Below, piece by piece: positions 18,287 through 26,021 of a stretch of DNA of 26,091 nt. Where the stretch lies: the IMG/VR virus record IMGVR_UViG_3300031963_000825, positions 1 through 26,091 of that record; one strand, 5' to 3'. The translations under genes and the position numbers were made by a program. Below the pieces are notes generated by a model. It was not told the origin of the DNA, made no database searches, and saw only the letters and a program-made list of their open reading frames with translations. Source of the stretch: a virus. The stretch's first letter is position 1, and every line of letters starts with the position of its first letter.

Positions 18287-20152
18287 CTATCCGTATACTT
18301 GGGACCACTGCTCAGCGAAAGCTTCTTCGAGGTTGATAGACCCTCGTTGTGCCTTCTGCTGTCTAGTAGTCCAGCGATTGTTCATCCACCTTGACACCTG
18401 TGACCCCATCTGCATCATCTCGCGGATGCGGATGATAGCAAACCAGAGAGCCATCACGGTATCGGTTGGGTTTCTCGTGTCAGCTTTCCAGGTGATCAGT
18501 TGCTGGACGAGGGTCTTGAGACCTTCAGATCCTTCGTTGGAAGGAAGCTCGATTATGTTGTTGTCTTGGAATCGTCCGTCACGAAGAGTCCCGAAAAGCA
18601 TTGCCATAGAAGCGACACCAAAACTAGTGTCCCACTTATTCTTACCAGTAAAGTGAGAACCCAGCGAGCAGCCGTGAGCAGCGAGCCAATTGCGGAGATC
18701 GTCGTCCAGAGCGTATGCTTTCTGGTGTGCGTTGATCTCAATGCGCAACTCCTGTGGTCGGTATCGCTGCACCCAATCCTCGATCAGGTTGCGAATCTTT
18801 TGTGGGCTAGGCTCGGTCATATTGACTGCGTCGAGGACATAGATCTTGCCGTCGACCTTGTTGTAGGTAGCCACGACTGCACCTGTGGCACCAGCCATTG
18901 CTGGGTCAAGACCTATAACGGTAAAGCCCTCAACAGACTTTGGGTGACCAGCAGCGCCAGACTTGAGCGGTCCGCGCTTTCGCATTCCGTTGACCGAACC
19001 TGCGATGCAGGCTGGGGCAAAGATCGAATCTTCTTGGACGTCCTCTTGTTGGTAGACCATTGCCCAGACAGAAGGCGCCACTTCGCTTCGTCGAGTGAAG
19101 AGAGACGGTCCATCCCACTTGGGGTAGAGTCCTTGTTCATTCGCTTCATCGATGTCGCCTTCGGGCCTATCAGTCCAGGGCCAGAGGGTTTTCCAGTTGG
19201 CTGGCTTCTCGTCGAACTCCAACACCGCTGGCATCGCCATATAGGTGAATGGGCTCTTACCGCCAGTCCATTGACCGCCGTCCCGGATCATCTTGTATAA
19301 ATCTATGGGAGCGACACGGGTTCCTACTACAAGCAGTTTTCCGTGCCGTCCCAGACGGGTGATGACTTCTTTTTGAAGCCATTCAATTTGCTTCTCCCAC
19401 TCGTGGGCATTTGCGTTCATCACCACATCGTCGAGGATAATCAGATCGGCGCGAGCACCATAGATCTGAGATCCAAAACCAAGAGCTTGGACCGTAGGGT
19501 CCTTTTCGCCTGAGTCACGTCCTGTACCCAGGTAGATCATATCTGCCGACCAAGTGTTGCTGTCAGCCTTGTAGCCACCCTGGGGTCCGAAGGACACCTG
19601 TAGCTTAGTCCAGTTCGGATGGCTAAGCCTGGTCTTGATTGCCGAGAGGAACTTGCGAGCCATACCCTGGGTCTTAGAAACAATAATGATTCGGACGTTG
19701 GGGTCTGTCGCAATCCGGTAGGTCACGTAGTTGATTGTGATGACCGTCGACTTGGCGTGCTCGGGTGGGACGTTGATCAGGACTCGGTTGGGGTTGGATA
19801 CCTCGTAGGTCATCGCCGGGTGGGTGAAGCGTGGCTCCCTACCCTCAATCAGGTCGACCCAGGAGAGGTGGTGGTCGAAGAGTTTGGTCTCTAGGAACTG
19901 CTCGGAGAAGTCCTCGAAGGAGATATCCTTCAGGGCGCTCAGGTCAGCCTTGACACCCTTACCTTCAAGCCGAGCTTTATCGGCTGCTGCCTTGAACTCG
20001 GCGTTAGCCATTGACCATTGGCGGAAGGTGACGTCATTTCGCCCTACAGCCCTCATCGCATCGATGATGGTCGCCCCATTGGCTAGGAGCTCGAGGACCT
20101 GCTTCTGGGCCACATCCTTGGGGATGTCCTGTTTTCCTGGCTTACGCCCCAT
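18287..20152 (-). CDS. terL: Terminase large subunit with N-terminal HTH
   Basis: This 621-residue motor-nuclease packages DNA into the prohead. The ATPase shows a variant Walker A (VPPEHAKST, 128-136), a Walker B (LIILDD, 237-242) and a coupling motif (VVGTR, about 275-279). The nuclease shows the three acidic positions of the RNase H-like fold: D416 in VIGLDPA, E472 in RIEIN and D564 in PTDTVMALW. Residues about 16-60 form a helix-turn-helix (VLELLANGATIIDAMRAVG) of the kind found in terminase small subunits, and no separate small-subunit gene is visible in the window. The gene heads the late operon, after the 1-kb control region. Start ATG at 20152, preceded by GGGGA. Confidence 0.93.
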   Translation of the reverse strand: MGRKPGKQDIPKDVAQKQVLELLANGATIIDAMRAVGRNDVTFRQWSMANAEFKAAADKARLEGKGVKADLSALKDISFEDFSEQFLETKLFDHHLSWVDLIEGREPRFTHPAMTYEVSNPNRVLINVPPEHAKSTVITINYVTYRIATDPNVRIIIVSKTQGMARKFLSAIKTRLSHPNWTKLQVSFGPQGGYKADSNTWSADMIYLGTGRDSGEKDPTVQALGFGSQIYGARADLIILDDVVMNANAHEWEKQIEWLQKEVITRLGRHGKLLVVGTRVAPIDLYKMIRDGGQWTGGKSPFTYMAMPAVLEFDEKPANWKTLWPWTDRPEGDIDEANEQGLYPKWDGPSLFTRRSEVAPSVWAMVYQQEDVQEDSIFAPACIAGSVNGMRKRGPLKSGAAGHPKSVEGFTVIGLDPAMAGATGAVVATYNKVDGKIYVLDAVNMTEPSPQKIRNLIEDWVQRYRPQELRIEINAHQKAYALDDDLRNWLAAHGCSLGSHFTGKNKWDTSFGVASMAMLFGTLRDGRFQDNNIIELPSNEGSEGLKTLVQQLITWKADTRNPTDTVMALWFAIIRIREMMQMGSQVSRWMNNRWTTRQQKAQRGSINLEEAFAEQWSQVYG

Positions 20153-20843: not shown

Positions 20844-21130
20844 GTTCCGTTCACCTAATGTTCATCTTGCTGAGCGTGGATTCGATTAGGTGATTCGAAG
20901 GGTTCGGGTTTACACTTCGGGTTATCGGTTGGAAGAACCACCGGTGAGAGTGACCGAAGCGGGCAATCCGCGTGAACTAGGTCTGAATCCTCAATCCGGT
21001 CAGATTGTCACCGAAGATTCACGAACCGGGTTCACATCGTAGTCGCAAAGCGTGGATGCCCTAGACCAAGCGCCGAAAGTGTCGATTCTCTCCCATAGTA
21101 AGTGATTCGCCTAGTTGTTTATAAGTAGGT

Positions 21131-21200
21131 TCGGGAGGGTTCGATTCCCTCCCGGACTACTGCCGGAAGGTATCCGGTGAAACTAGGTTAGGGGTTAGAT
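21131..21200 (+). promoter_or_regulatory. Structured 5' leader, copy 1 (T-arm-like)
   Basis: Hairpin 1 pairs TTCGGGAGGG with CCCTCCCGGA around the 7-base loop TTCGATT, the sequence of a tRNA T-arm. Hairpin 2 pairs CCGGA (21163-21167) with TCCGG (21173-21177) around a 5-base loop. A conserved block follows (21182-21200), containing AGGGG as ribosome-binding site, and ends at the ATG of the 97-residue gene. The shared 14-mer GGGTTCGATTCCCT starts 64 bp before the ATG. No full tRNA can be folded here. Copy 2 precedes the next gene. Confidence 0.6.
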
Positions 21201-21494
21201 ATGACGGTTGCCACGATTAGAGAAGTTCGCTCAACCGCGAGAGGGAGACACTCGCTCGCCACGCGAACACGCTCACAACGGACACGCTATGACTTCCCGG
21301 TAACAATTACCGATAAGTCCGGCAAGGTTCGGGTAGTATCCGGGGAAGTGGTTCGACCTAAGCGTGGTCGCAAGGGTCGCACTAGTAAGAATCGCAAGGT
21401 TGCCTACCGCCTAAGCGCACAACGCGTGAAGGGTTCGGGCGATACCTTCGATGCGCGAGTGATGCGCGAAATAGGTACGATTCACCAAGATTAG
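21201..21494 (+). CDS. Small basic protein of unknown function
   Basis: This 97-residue protein is the first gene of the rightward arm. The ATG follows AGGGG by 6 bp. The product is rich in Arg, Lys, Ser and Thr, with a basic N-terminus (STARGRHSLATRTRSQRTR), a beta-like segment (YDFPVTITDKSGKVRVVSGEVV, about 30-51) and a very basic centre (RPKRGRKGRTSKNRKVAYRL). The last 25 residues are mixed. It may bind nucleic acid, as many first early phage proteins do, but no family is recognised. It is controlled by a structured leader shared with the next gene, which suggests the two are regulated together. Confidence 0.7.
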   Translation: MTVATIREVRSTARGRHSLATRTRSQRTRYDFPVTITDKSGKVRVVSGEVVRPKRGRKGRTSKNRKVAYRLSAQRVKGSGDTFDARVMREIGTIHQD

Positions 21495-21503
21495 AGCAAG
21501 GTA

Positions 21504-21587
21504 GGCGTGAAGGGTTCACGCAGGGTTCGATTCCCTGCCACGCCACGCACTAGCGATACACGCTAGGCACTAGGTTAGGGGCTTGAT
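21504..21587 (+). promoter_or_regulatory. Structured 5' leader, copy 2 (T-arm-like)
   Basis: The same layout as copy 1. GCAGGG and CCCTGC enclose the loop TTCGATT (14-mer at 21523-21536, 65 bp before the ATG). Hairpin 2 pairs CTAGCG (21550-21555) with CGCTAG (21561-21566) around a 5-base loop. The block at 21569-21587 matches copy 1 at 17 of 19 bases. In addition GGCGTG (21504-21509) can pair with CACGCC (21539-21544), giving a 42-nt acceptor/T-arm minihelix, or CGTGAA (21506-21511) can pair with TTCACG (21515-21520); the two folds exclude each other. Confidence 0.62.
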
Positions 21588-21911
21588 ATGAGTAGTAACT
21601 ATCAAGGATGGTCTAATCAAGAGACTTGGGCGATGGCGCTACATATGGCGAATGACTCAGGACTCAATGAACACTCGCTAGGCTATGCCGGTGCGGAACT
21701 TGAGAACTACCCTAATGATGGTGATTCGGTGAACATCGAACACCTAGCCGAAACCCTTCGGCATTGGATAGAGGAAAGCATCTTCTCCTATGAGAATGTG
21801 AAAGCAAGCCGATATGTGTACGCTATACTTCTCGATGTGGGGTCACTATGGAAGATCGACTACCGCGAGATAGCCGAAAGCCTTATCAACCGAGTGAAAG
21901 AGGGGGAATAA
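21588..21911 (+). CDS. Small phage protein with YxGWxNxETW motif
   Basis: This 107-residue protein begins MSSNYQGWSNQETWAMALHMAND. That opening (Y-x-GW-x-N-x-ETW, then a helix ending in ND) is the signature of a family of short proteins found widely in phages, probably the DUF7249-like group; I am recalling the motif, not a database hit. The rest is helical (HLAETLRHWIEESIFSYE, YAILLDVGSLWKIDYREIAESLINRV). No function is established. The ATG follows the second copy of the structured leader, with AGGGG upstream. It is 2 bp from the following gene. Confidence 0.74.
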   Translation: MSSNYQGWSNQETWAMALHMANDSGLNEHSLGYAGAELENYPNDGDSVNIEHLAETLRHWIEESIFSYENVKASRYVYAILLDVGSLWKIDYREIAESLINRVKEGE

Positions 21912-21913
21912 GT

Positions 21914-22099
21914 ATGAGCGAGAACCTATTACTAGACCTTACCGAAACCGAGGTCGAAGTGATGCGCCAAGCATTACGCCATCACATCGAACACTACAAG
22001 CGAAACGATTTCCGAATCCTAGCGAACCGGACGGGAGACTTGCTCAACAAGGTCAATGACGCTATCATCGACTCCAAGCGAGAGAAGGAGAGAATATGA
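21914..22099 (+). CDS. 61-residue helical protein, unknown
   Basis: Read from the ATG at 21914, 2 bp after the previous stop and behind a GGGGG site; a longer in-frame extension upstream lies inside the previous gene and is unlikely. The product begins MSENLLLDLTETEVEVMRQAL and is predicted to be two helices with conserved-looking LRHHIEHYKRNDFRIL in the middle and a basic end (DSKREKERI). It ends in ATGA with the amidoligase gene, so translation of the two is coupled. It may be an accessory of the downstream enzymes, but nothing in the sequence shows this. Confidence 0.68.
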   Translation: MSENLLLDLTETEVEVMRQALRHHIEHYKRNDFRILANRTGDLLNKVNDAIIDSKREKERI

Positions 22100-23289
22100 C
22101 CGATGAAGTGAACTACGAGTGCGCTAGTTGCGGATGGATTACCGCGCATCGTGACCAACTCTACGAGATAGGCGAGTCGCTCTATTGCGACACTTGCTCA
22201 AGGGTATGTGACCGATGTGGTGACCGAACCGGCGAGGATTTCTACTTCATCGAGGGCATCGAGGAATCGTGGTGCGAAGAGTGCGCTATGGATAACTCGA
22301 CCTATTGCGACAACTGCGATGCTCGCTATCACGATAGTCGGGTGTCCTTCTATACCCTCAACGACACCGATGAGTCGATGTGCGAGTATTGCGCCAGCAA
22401 TAATCACTCGTGGTGCGATGACCACAATGTGTACTATAACGCCGAGTGTTGCGAGTGTGAGTCTGACCCTCGCTCAAGCATCCACGATTACTCCTATAAG
22501 CCAGACCCGGAGTTCATCGGTACCGACAAGCACAACCTATACTTCGGCATCGAAGTTGAGACGGAAGTATGGGGAGACTTAGGGGAAGCGGCAAGAGCGA
22601 TAGGTATGGAGACATCCTTCTATCTCAAGAATGATTCATCCATCGGTGCTAACACCAAGCGTAGGGGATTCGAGGTTGTCTCTCATCCTCACACGCTTGA
22701 TGCGTGGATGTCTCCCGATAACCCGATGCTTCGCTACCTTGAGGACATCCGGCGCAACTTCACCGCTAGGTCTTGGGATGCTGAGTCCTCGTGTGGATTA
22801 CACATCCACATATCACGCGCCGGGTTCGGTTCCGGTGCTCATACTCATCGGTTCCTCTCGCTCGTGTACTCCAACGCTATCGAGATGTCTAAGTTAGGTG
22901 GTCGCAAGGGTAGTAGTTACGCCAAGTTCTCGGATGTGTACAAGTTCGACGATTACGGCAGACCTTACCGAGACTTCCGCGACAAGATTCACAATAGCCG
23001 GATGACCGAGCGATATAGCGCGGTCAATACTCTCAACCGAGAGACACTAGAGTTGCGATGGTTCCAAGGTACGCTCAAGCGTGACGGAATCCTCGCCAAC
23101 ATCCAACTCGCTCACGCTATGGTGGAGTACACACGCTACATCACAGTAGCGCAAGTGCGAGAAGGTGCTTTGCGTTGGGATCGATTCGCTCATTGGGTCG
23201 CTAGTATGGGTACATATCCACAACTAGCCGACAAGATAGCGCGACTCGATGCTGTCTCACTATCCATCAAGCCGACACTCAATGCCTAG
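22096..23289 (+). CDS. Amidoligase-family enzyme with Cys-rich N-terminus
   Basis: This 397-residue protein has two parts. Residues 1-125 contain 16 Cys, most as CxxC pairs (9/12, 31/34, 38/41, 60/63, 71/74, 96/99), so a run of zinc-binding knuckles is likely. Residues about 145-397 carry the marks of Amidoligase_2, a glutamine-synthetase-like COOH-NH2 ligase: YFGIEVETE (149-157) with metal-binding Glu, KNDSSIG (178-184), FEVVSHP (192-198), CGLHIHIS (233-240), ERYSAVN (305-311) and TLELRWFQGTL (317-327). The family uses ATP to join a carboxylate and an amine, giving peptide-like or gamma-glutamyl bonds; this enzyme's substrate is unknown. It overlaps the previous gene by ATGA and is followed by an amidotransferase, which could supply ammonia. 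Confidence 0.84.
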   Translation: MTDEVNYECASCGWITAHRDQLYEIGESLYCDTCSRVCDRCGDRTGEDFYFIEGIEESWCEECAMDNSTYCDNCDARYHDSRVSFYTLNDTDESMCEYCASNNHSWCDDHNVYYNAECCECESDPRSSIHDYSYKPDPEFIGTDKHNLYFGIEVETEVWGDLGEAARAIGMETSFYLKNDSSIGANTKRRGFEVVSHPHTLDAWMSPDNPMLRYLEDIRRNFTARSWDAESSCGLHIHISRAGFGSGAHTHRFLSLVYSNAIEMSKLGGRKGSSYAKFSDVYKFDDYGRPYRDFRDKIHNSRMTERYSAVNTLNRETLELRWFQGTLKRDGILANIQLAHAMVEYTRYITVAQVREGALRWDRFAHWVASMGTYPQLADKIARLDAVSLSIKPTLNA

Positions 23290-23300
23290 GGGGTAATGAT

Positions 23301-24137
23301 ATGTGTCTACTAGTTGTCTGTTCGCCGGGTTCTATACCGGACAGAGCAGACCTTGAGCGTGGTGCGTGTGCTAATCCACACGGCTACGGCTTCGCTATGA
23401 TTATCGGTGGCAAGGTTCATCGCTACCGAACTATGTCTCGTAAGAAAGCGGTCAATAAATTCTTAGAGATGCGTACCCTTCATCCCGAAGGACACGCTAT
23501 ATGGCACGCTCGATACGCCACGCACGGCGTGAAGAATGAAGCCAACTGCCATCCATTCCAAGTCGGAAGCGATGAGGATACTGTCCTCGCCCACAACGGA
23601 GTCCTCGATACTCACATCGAGCCGGGTGATAGGCGTAGCGACACTCGCATATTCGCTGAGGATACGCTTCCCACACTCGGTGGCGTGACGGCTCTCGACA
23701 ACGAGAACCTATACATCCTCGTATCCAAGTGGGCTAGGGGTAGCAAGATAGCCGTACTCACGACCAACCCTCTCGCCAAGCACGAGTGCTACATCATCAA
23801 CGAGGATGCCGGTGCGTGGGATGACAACGGTATATGGTGGTCGAACGAATCGTACAAGCCGGTCGAGAAGAAGTATCCGACTTATAGTTACGGATCAATG
23901 TGGTCGAACGCTAGTGGTCACAAGCCACAAGACTTAGGTTCCCTCGCCTATGACGAGATATGGGATGCCTATGTAGATGAGCAAGGATTCCTCCTCGCTG
24001 AGTGTCCTAACTGCCAACAACTATCGACCTATGAAAGCCACACCTGCGAGCATTGTACGCTATGCTACGACTGCTCAATGGTAGAGAGCGAGTGCTTGTG
24101 CTATGTGCCAAGCAAGAGCCGACACATCGGCTATTAG
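23301..24137 (+). CDS. Class II glutamine amidotransferase with C-terminal Cys cluster
   Basis: This 278-residue protein starts MC, giving the N-terminal Cys2 nucleophile once Met is removed. Other class II (Ntn-type) features are NPHGYGFAM (25-33), WHARYATHG (68-76), CHPF (83-86), LAHNG (96-100) with the oxyanion-hole Asn-Gly, and RSDTRIF (112-118). The domain hydrolyses glutamine to release ammonia. The C-terminal residues 235-267 hold eight Cys, mostly in CxxC pairs (235/238, 249/252, 255/258), a probable zinc ribbon similar in style to the one on the amidoligase. The gene starts 11 bp after the amidoligase stop behind GGGGG. The two probably act on one substrate, with ammonia passed to the ligase or the product trimmed. 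Confidence 0.85.
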   Translation: MCLLVVCSPGSIPDRADLERGACANPHGYGFAMIIGGKVHRYRTMSRKKAVNKFLEMRTLHPEGHAIWHARYATHGVKNEANCHPFQVGSDEDTVLAHNGVLDTHIEPGDRRSDTRIFAEDTLPTLGGVTALDNENLYILVSKWARGSKIAVLTTNPLAKHECYIINEDAGAWDDNGIWWSNESYKPVEKKYPTYSYGSMWSNASGHKPQDLGSLAYDEIWDAYVDEQGFLLAECPNCQQLSTYESHTCEHCTLCYDCSMVESECLCYVPSKSRHIGY

Positions 24138-24192: not shown

Positions 24193-24483
24193 ATGATAAT
24201 GTCCAACAATGTAGTCCTATGGTCAGTCGCTGACGACCTTCGAGGTATCGCAACTGAACTCGAGTCTCTGACTCTGTACGCTGATGATGTCCAGACCATC
24301 GCTTCGGTATATCCAAAGCGTGGTACTATCGTCAAGGCTAAGGCTAGCCAGACACGATACAAGCCGACATCTATGTGGGTATCCAATGGGGATGGTACTT
24401 ACACCCACATCACCGGCAAGAAGTTCCTCCAAGCCAAGCACGATAGGCTTGATGGCTTCGTCGACCCTCTCTTTATCGCGTAA
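24193..24483 (+). CDS. 96-residue protein of unknown function
   Basis: Two ATGs, at 24193 and 24199, could start this gene; the second (MSNNVVLW) is better spaced from AGAAAG, while the first is only 2 codons longer. The N-terminal half is helical (VADDLRGIATELESLTLYADDVQTIASV). The C-terminal half looks like a small beta barrel (GTIVKAKASQTRYKPTSMWV, DGTYTHITGKKFL). No known family is recognised. It stands between two hairpins and may be its own small transcription unit. Confidence 0.68.
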   Translation: MIMSNNVVLWSVADDLRGIATELESLTLYADDVQTIASVYPKRGTIVKAKASQTRYKPTSMWVSNGDGTYTHITGKKFLQAKHDRLDGFVDPLFIA

Positions 24484-25126: not shown

Positions 25127-25243
25127 TTGTACGCGATAAGAGTATTCAGCGCGATAACGCTGACCGCATTGATACTGAACTTACCATTGATAGTAATACC
25201 ACTATCGATGCTCACCTTACTAGCCGTTAGGAGGACGATGTGA
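25127..25243 (+). CDS. Putative 38-residue membrane microprotein
   Basis: This frame opens at a TTG (25127), 1 bp after the previous stop, and closes with a TGA that overlaps the GTG start of whiB (GTGA). The product reads from YAIRVFSAITL through ALILNLPLIVIPLSMLTLLAV and ends RRTM: one long or two short hydrophobic segments, a basic end and almost no other charge. GGGG lies 10 bp upstream of the TTG. The evidence is the filled gap, coupling on both sides and the clear membrane pattern. A phage membrane peptide, perhaps holin-like or inhibitory, is possible because a cell-wall hydrolase lies one gene downstream. There is no ATG, so confidence is moderate. Confidence 0.45.
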   Translation: MYAIRVFSAITLTALILNLPLIVIPLSMLTLLAVRRTM

Positions 25244-25641
25244 ACAAGGGAGCAAGGTCAAGGGTGTATAAGAACAACGAGTACAACCAACTACAAGGGT
25301 TGTGTACAGGAAGTTCTGACCCAGAGTTATGGTTCTCTGATACTGCCGACCAGATGAACGGCAAGGGTAAGAGACTCGAGCCAGAGGTGAAGGCTAGAAT
25401 GGTAGCCCGAACATTGGCAGCAATATCGATCTGTTCGATATGTCCAATCAAGGAAGCCTGTCTTGCCGAGGGTATGAAACCTCAGAACATCGACTTCGGT
25501 GTATGGGGTGGCACGCTACCCGGCGAGCGCTTGGCTATGACCACTCGATCAAAGAGTTCGAGGGATGTTGCGAACAAGATGATATTCGCCAGACAAGTTA
25601 GGGAGGCAGAACGATTATTACTCGGAGAGGCATTGTCGTAA
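25240..25641 (+). CDS. whiB: WhiB-family iron-sulfur transcription regulator
   Basis: This 133-residue protein starts at a GTG with a strong TTAGGAGG site and overlaps the previous frame by GTGA. It shows the full WhiB pattern: C22, then C65-x2-C68-x5-C74, which hold a 4Fe-4S cluster, an LWF segment after the first Cys (30-32), and the GVWGG turn (87-91), followed by a basic C-terminal region. WhiB proteins bind the host's principal sigma factor and change promoter choice; phage copies can displace host WhiB proteins or steer transcription. The gap between the first two Cys (42 residues) is longer than in many host members, with a Lys-rich insertion near 40-47. The 3' end overlaps the likely start of the next gene. 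Confidence 0.92.
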   Translation: MNKGARSRVYKNNEYNQLQGLCTGSSDPELWFSDTADQMNGKGKRLEPEVKARMVARTLAAISICSICPIKEACLAEGMKPQNIDFGVWGGTLPGERLAMTTRSKSSRDVANKMIFARQVREAERLLLGEALS

Positions 25642-26021
25642 TCACCACCGCCGTTATACTCGGCATATTCGGATTCCATAAAGTCGCTATCGCTCCAACA
25701 CCACACATACCAAAGGTTGAGAAGCGAGTATGGACTGTTATGGATAGCAAGGCGTATGCCCGTGACCAACTGGTCAAGTGGACTAATCGCCAATGGTCTT
25801 GCCTAGCAAAGTTGTGGGGTAAGGAATCAGCGTGGAACCCAAGAGCCTACAATAAACAGAAGGTAATGGGACGCAACGCTGGTGGTATTCCGCAACTGCT
25901 AGGCTTAGACCCCAAAGTTCCAGCGACACGACAGATCGAGCGAGGGTTGGCTTATATCTACCATCGCTACGATACGCCGTGTAATGCGTGGAAGTTCTTC
26001 AAGGAAAACAACTACCACTAA
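25614..26021 (+). CDS. Secreted lytic transglycosylase-like wall hydrolase, non-ATG start
   Basis: The catalytic domain is the actinobacterial SLT type: QWSCLAKLWGKESAWNPRAYN carries the catalytic Glu in KES-x-WNP, followed by GGIPQLLG and RGLAYIYHRYDTPCNAW with a Cys pair likely to form a disulfide. It cleaves peptidoglycan. The first ATG in frame (25740) would omit a basic N-region (TRRG) and a hydrophobic segment (IVVITTAVILGIFGF) that form an obvious signal anchor. From the in-frame TAG at 25599 to that ATG there is no ATG, GTG or TTG. GGAGG (25602-25606) stands 7 bp before ATT at 25614, so ATT initiation is likely. About 135 residues result. The start overlaps whiB in another frame. Confidence 0.72.
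   Translation: MITRRGIVVITTAVILGIFGFHKVAIAPTPHIPKVEKRVWTVMDSKAYARDQLVKWTNRQWSCLAKLWGKESAWNPRAYNKQKVMGRNAGGIPQLLGLDPKVPATRQIERGLAYIYHRYDTPCNAWKFFKENNYH

Follow-up and report, generated by a model that had tools for sequence, protein, structure and literature searches.

Pairs of genes encoding an amidoligase and a glutamine amidotransferase (GATase) have already been published in phages (PMC5498523, PMC10580990, PMC3890496, PMC3517423), and known carriers are mycobacteriophage Marvin, LUZ24, tf, phiEco32, and OM43 phages. The cassettes of LUZ24, phiEco32, tf, UFV-P2, and RIO-1 contain an Amidoligase_2 gene and a class II GATase gene close together on one strand, and those of LUZ24 and phiEco32 add genes for a COOH-NH2 ligase, an ATP-grasp protein, and a gamma-glutamyl cyclotransferase (GGCT). 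In Marvin (Cluster S) and its relatives the two enzymes correspond to gp105 and gp106, and in public databases the Marvin version is annotated as 'glutamine amidotransferase domain protein'. In one Arthrobacter phage cluster an amidoligase gene adjoins an AIG2-like gene. Two-protein, glutamine-dependent amidation is also known from GatD/MurT, in which the glutaminase is a separate protein, the ligase carries a Cys4 zinc ribbon, and the D-isoglutamate of the peptide stem is amidated (PMC6113224).

Here we describe an amidoligase-GATase pair in a viral contig from IMG/VR, in which both enzymes carry cysteine-rich modules. The original prediction held that this locus could be an undescribed phage modification system, which goes too far given the published phage pairs and the annotated version in Marvin. 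The kind of system is known, and features of its predicted zinc-bearing version also occur in Marvin, on mycobacterial plasmids, and in gut Clostridia. In a literature search that did not extend to Iyer et al. 2009 or the Marvin genome paper, we found no description of the finger array on the ligase, the zinc-like tail of the GATase, or the 61-residue partner protein encoded next to them, and no biochemical assay of the zinc-bearing amidoligase-GATase subfamily.

Organization of the locus

The window, by which we mean the entire 26,091-base contig that was analysed, has a left part on the minus strand containing mainly structural genes, with the terminase gene at 18287–20152, and a right part of small genes on the plus strand. 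Among the latter are genes for a 61-residue helical protein (21914–22099), a 397-residue amidoligase (22096–23289), and a 278-residue class II glutamine amidotransferase with a Met-Cys start, a predicted Ntn glutaminase (23301–24137). The end of the 61-residue ORF and the start of the amidoligase share 4 nt (ATGA) and 11 bases separate the amidoligase and GATase genes, and the three genes are therefore read as one operon. A gene for a 96-residue protein (24193–24483) lies downstream and is a possible fourth member. Further to the right are genes for a WhiB-like regulator and a transglycosylase-like protein (25240–25641 and 25740–26021), which keep this position in 50 of 53 relatives. The phage host is probably an actinobacterium, since the contig has the WhiB-like and transglycosylase-like genes and a terminase resembling those of Streptomyces phages.

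Among the described phages, Marvin and its relatives share with the window the gene order and both enzymes, with 30–34% identity over most of each protein. Marvin gp105 has only part of the N-terminal cysteine array and, unlike the window amidoligase, a long C-terminal extension; the gene upstream encodes gp104, which has its own PHROG, apart from the 61-residue protein. The pairing of an Amidoligase_2 gene with a nearby class II GATase gene on one strand is also common to the window and the LUZ24, phiEco32, tf, UFV-P2, and RIO-1 cassettes, although no COOH-NH2 ligase, ATP-grasp, or GGCT gene was identified among the genes conserved around the pair in the window clade. As the window is a genome fragment, such genes could be located in another part of the genome.

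Predicted activities of the two enzymes

The amidoligase ORF matches the Pfam family Amidoligase_2 (PF12224) with an E-value of 2e-7 and 31.6 bits (cut-off 22), and the same family is matched by all 39 aligned relatives (E 0.1 or better). An NCBIfam profile search of the amidoligase gave no match. For both enzymes the top PHROG matches are families of unknown function, behind which rank 'amidoligase enzyme' and several glutamine-amidotransferase families. Residues E153, E155, E193, H236, H238, R241, N311, E319, and R321 are invariant in 12 of 12 sequences compared, including Marvin, OM43-phage, gut, and C. difficile phage sequences, and D180 is among the residues invariant even in distant relatives; the ligase catalytic residues are unchanged across phages, Clostridia, and Marvin. 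An AlphaFold2 model, for which the input alignment consisted of 39 sequences from the window and viral contigs, has a mean pLDDT of 85 and a pTM of 0.67. In this model the ligase domain (residues 144–397; 22525–23286) aligns by VIA-align to the carboxylate-amine ligase YbdK (1r8g/1tt4) with a Z-score of 12.3, and to plant glutamate-cysteine ligase (Z 11.5), glutamine synthetases (Z 10–11.5), and Dop (Z 10.7). By sequence and model, the ORF is an Amidoligase_2 protein of the glutamine synthetase (GS)-type fold with conserved acidic, histidine, and arginine residues, and is predicted to form amides in an ATP-dependent reaction.

The partner ORF scores above the Pfam cut-offs for both GATase_6 (PF13522; 31.1, cut-off 27) and GATase_4 (PF13230; 28.4, cut-off 23), and in NCBIfam matches only GlmS and PurF, below the cut-off. 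It has the class II signature of a Met-Cys start with RxxTHG, HNG, and D motifs, and C2, R71, T74, H75, G76, H98, N99, G100, and D114 are invariant in the phage clade; the core motifs are also unchanged across phages, Clostridia, and Marvin. The GATase model has a mean pLDDT of 75, which is high for most of residues 1–180 and low at 188–223 and in parts of the tail, and its top Foldseek match is the GlmS glutaminase domain (1xff, E 2.3e-8), followed by GFAT, EgtC, and PurF. Both family assignments in the original prediction thus hold, with the ORFs above Pfam cut-offs and the amidoligase relatives matching too, and the key residues it had pointed to are kept, the catalytic positions being invariant across homologues of both enzymes.

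Cysteine-rich modules

The N-terminal region of the amidoligase (residues 9–121; 22120–22458) contains 16 cysteines, at positions 9, 12, 31, 34, 38, 41, 60, 63, 71, 74, 96, 99, 107, 118, 119, and 121. Fifteen of these are 97–100% conserved in the phage clade, and C119 is private to the window sequence. Position 110 is histidine in the window and cysteine in nearly all relatives, and 16 possible metal ligands therefore remain. They can be arranged as four units of the form CxxC/H...CxxC (C9-C12-C31-C34, C38-C41-C60-C63, C71-C74-C96-C99, and C107-H110-C118-C121) that are LIM-like or treble-clef-like, and the cysteine spacing resembles that of tandem LIM domains. From its sequence we describe the array as LIM-like in the sense of resemblance and not of LIM membership, because sequence and fold matches are weak (a PDB sequence search gives E 0.018 and above, and Pfam LIM matches one of 39 members, at E 0.022) and because the linkers between fingers are 3 and 7 residues, as against the two-residue linker of LIM. 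LIM modules are mostly protein binders.

The GATase has a second module at its C-terminus (residues 235–267; 24003–24101), with cysteines at 235, 238, 249, 252, 255, 258, 265, and 267, all eight of which are conserved at 98–100% in the phage clade and are present in Marvin gp106. A tail of like kind is found in the GATase partners on mycobacterial plasmids. Two such plasmids, M. abscessus pGD21-2 (L303, 4902–6600) and an M. intracellulare subsp. chimaera plasmid (L304, 4851–6523), encode an amidoligase and a GATase with a Marvin-like Cys-rich tail, the GATase being annotated as 'glucosamine 6-phosphate synthetase'.

The two modules vary independently, because Clostridial pairs have fingers without the GATase tail, and LUZ24 and phiEco32 have amidoligases without fingers. 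The gut Clostridial pairs resemble the window in the pairing itself and in the Cys-rich ligase N-terminus, which mostly keeps 12–17 cysteines, and differ in lacking the 8-Cys tail of the GATase and in having DUF3846-like and recombinase genes as neighbours. The LUZ24 ligase shares motifs with the window clade (E 1.3e-5 by profile comparison), but the LUZ24 and phiEco32 ligases have no Cys-rich N-terminus and are not matched by the profile of the window clade. A comparison of the amidoligase and GATase cysteine regions gave no significant sequence similarity, and the cysteine spacing differs. Both modules are as real as originally predicted, with 15 of 16 and 8 of 8 cysteines conserved; the further suggestion that they are matching modules docking on the same target is not supported in general, as their spacing differs, they lack significant similarity, and their co-occurrence is not obligate in Clostridia, LUZ24, and phiEco32.

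Gene pairing and joint inheritance

A survey of gene neighbours in related phages, which the original prediction had suggested, places the amidoligase gene directly upstream of the GATase gene in 52 of 52 viral contigs with GATase relatives. In a broader scan the amidoligase had at least 572 viral relatives; among the best 80 of these, 75 of the 75 with room are paired with a GATase, a set that overlaps the 52 contigs. Bacterial contigs from a GTDB scan (80 loci kept, mostly from gut Clostridia) are paired in 74 of the 77 cases with room. Estimates of dN/dS among nearby relatives are ~0.15–0.3 for the amidoligase and 0.13–0.19 for the GATase, and the purifying selection together with the hundreds of viral relatives indicates that the pair is not a chance association. 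We looked for a fused amidoligase-GATase ORF and found none.

There are exceptions to the pairing. In the C. difficile plasmid L305 (4671–6859) an amidoligase gene adjoins a gene with a nucleotidyltransferase domain and no GATase is annotated nearby, and the surroundings of a related amidoligase gene in the C. difficile phage AR1086-1 (L060) yielded no GATase. The genome of Butyricicoccus pullicaecorum DSM 23266 has six amidoligase loci (L090, L093, L094, L113, L125, and L128), each paired with a GATase gene, as might be expected if the genes ride mobile elements.

Phages of the clade were also collected using the terminase as bait, irrespective of whether they carry the pair. At 31 of these loci the contig extends 3 kb or more upstream of the terminase; 22 of them carry the pair, nine lack both enzymes, and no locus has a single one of the two. 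Three of the nine pair-less loci have less than 5 kb of room. The 61-residue protein is present at 21 of the 22 pair-bearing loci and at none of the nine pair-less ones, and this co-occurrence and the 4-nt overlap bear out the coupling of its gene to the pair that had been proposed. Of 74 viral loci long enough to show it, 72 have its gene directly upstream of the amidoligase, and a family search with the protein yielded nothing above a weak PHROG match. The terminase tree requires at least two independent changes of the pair, along with which the 61-residue gene changes; the statistics of joint inheritance rest on few events, as only about two independent changes are needed. In pair-less phages the genes that flank the pair elsewhere (WhiB, transglycosylase, FmdB-like, sigma-factor, and primase) are still present as far as the contig extends. 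We read the module as an accessory cassette whose members are acquired or lost together.

The 96-residue protein is found downstream of the pair at 51 of 53 loci. At terminase-clade loci with at least 5 kb of room it is present in eight of 17 that carry the pair and in none of six that lack it, and it is tied less tightly to the pair than is the 61-residue protein. The 96-residue protein was considered as a Pup-like tag and rejected, since its last residue varies (A, P, Q, or G).

tRNA-like elements in the leader regions

The leaders between the terminase gene and the amidoligase operon contain tRNA-like RNA elements of ~45–57 nt, with an acceptor-like stem and a T-arm with a TTCRANN loop, and no anticodon arm. 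Two are present in the window, at 21504–21549 (a model match) and 21124–21160, and others are found in relatives, including L046 (4237–4291), L036 (3906–3960), L034 (4025–4079), L042 (409–461), and L019 (918–974). Six of the seven acceptor pairs have changes on both sides. A covariance model trained on ten elements, including that of the window, gave 17 matches in 50 loci, of which ten are the elements it was trained on. Most of the elements are not recognised as tRNAs by ARAGORN, and their only Rfam match is mascRNA-like and falls below the threshold. The elements are not tied to the pair, as there is a weak match in a pair-less phage (L286). Twice in the window (21182–21204 and 21569–21591), a 23-nt leader of nearly the same sequence (ACTAGGTTAGGGG.T.GATATGA) ends at the start codon of a small gene; the two genes are consecutive, and a T-arm-like hairpin lies before each.

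Predicted function and possible substrates

The pair probably uses glutamine and ATP and amidates some host or phage molecule. On balance we favour the interpretation that the products of the two genes are the subunits of a single amidating enzyme that depends on glutamine, with the ligase docked through its fingers on a substrate or carrier. That they form a single enzyme in two parts is suggested by the near-obligate pairing and the joint loss. Following removal of its first methionine, the GATase would hydrolyse glutamine using Cys2 and pass ammonia to the amidoligase, a predicted GS-fold carboxylate-amine ligase that would activate a substrate carboxylate with ATP and convert it to a primary amide. 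The four zinc-finger-like units may dock the amidoligase on its substrate or carrier, and the GATase tail and the 61-residue protein probably aid assembly or targeting in the actinobacterial branch. Ammonia transfer, zinc binding, and docking are inferred parts of this model. No fused ORF was found that would speak for ammonia channelling, and the case for joint inheritance draws on only about two independent gains or losses. Alternatively, the GATase may act on its own as an Ntn hydrolase, or the ligase could take another amine.

We take GatD/MurT as the precedent for a separate glutaminase working with a zinc-ribbon ligase, although the ligases are not homologous, MurT having a Mur-ligase fold, and the glutaminases belong to different classes, GatD using Cys94 and His189 and having no N-terminal cysteine. 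Membership of the window pair in the GatD/MurT family is rejected, as a class II GATase and a GS fold were found instead.

For the two-subunit enzyme the favoured substrate is a peptide carboxylate, for example that of a wall precursor or a host protein. Modification of a protein or peptide inside the cell is a tentative reading, in which the fingers would bind a host or phage protein and a side-chain or C-terminal carboxylate would be amidated so as to inactivate or activate the protein, as might happen when the host is taken over or its defences are countered. Conservation of the LIM-like finger array on the ligase, the fold that the ligase has in common with the protein-acting Pup enzymes PafA and Dop, and the spread of the pair over phages, plasmids, and bacterial genome loci are consistent with this, but a search with PADLOC anti-phage defence profiles returned no family at E 0.1. 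An actual PafA/Dop-type Pup system is rejected, as there is no Pup-like tag: the fold is shared, but the C-terminus of the 61-residue neighbour is not conserved.

Amidation of a peptidoglycan stem-peptide carboxylate during infection, altering cross-linking or receptors and excluding other phages, is possible although somewhat unlikely. Cell wall modification and superinfection exclusion are the published predictions for RIO-1-like phages, phiEco32, and OM43 phages (PMC5498523; PMC10580990), a prophage survey restates the superinfection-exclusion idea for amidoligases, and a wall-modification role for amidoligase and GATase is attributed to Iyer et al. 2009 as cited in PMC10580990. The stem-peptide D-isoglutamate is also the target of GatD/MurT, a pair of like logic (PMC6113224), and the hosts are probably actinobacteria, as suggested by the WhiB gene and the Streptomyces-phage-like terminase. 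However, the transglycosylase and WhiB genes keep their place in phages that lack the pair; they therefore provide no evidence for a wall role, and a cell-wall context drawn from the transglycosylase neighbour is rejected. The ATP-grasp, COOH-NH2 ligase, and GGCT genes of the LUZ24 and phiEco32 cassettes are not beside the pair in the window, and Clostridial genome contigs place it next to recombinase and DUF3846-like genes.

It is doubtful that the pair makes an amide metabolite such as a signal, a toxin, or a nucleotide-like compound. Secondary metabolites have been suggested for Marvin, as cited in PMC10580990, and the closest solved folds include the carboxylate-amine ligases YbdK and GCL, which act on small molecules, but no further biosynthetic gene was recognised next to the pair and a finger array would be unusual for a small-molecule enzyme. 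That the cysteine modules and the pairing are incidental and the genes decaying passengers, to which the absence of the pair from some relatives with the same terminase might point, is very improbable and is refuted by the conservation data, namely purifying selection, invariant active sites, and joint loss.

Implications

A great many phages carry amidoligase-GATase pairs, as do gut Clostridia and plasmids of mycobacteria, and since 2009 the substrate of these enzymes has been a matter of guesswork. The joint presence or absence of three genes among phages with a common terminase makes the question testable, as does the conserved finger array, which can serve as bait when expressed by itself. 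A more speculative and in our view unlikely extension of the two-subunit enzyme is a three-part system composed of the 61-residue protein as adaptor, the finger-bearing ligase, and the zinc-tailed glutaminase, which would be guided by its fingers to one host protein or nucleoprotein and amidate it at takeover. If true, this three-part system would be a post-translational modification so far undescribed in phage infection.
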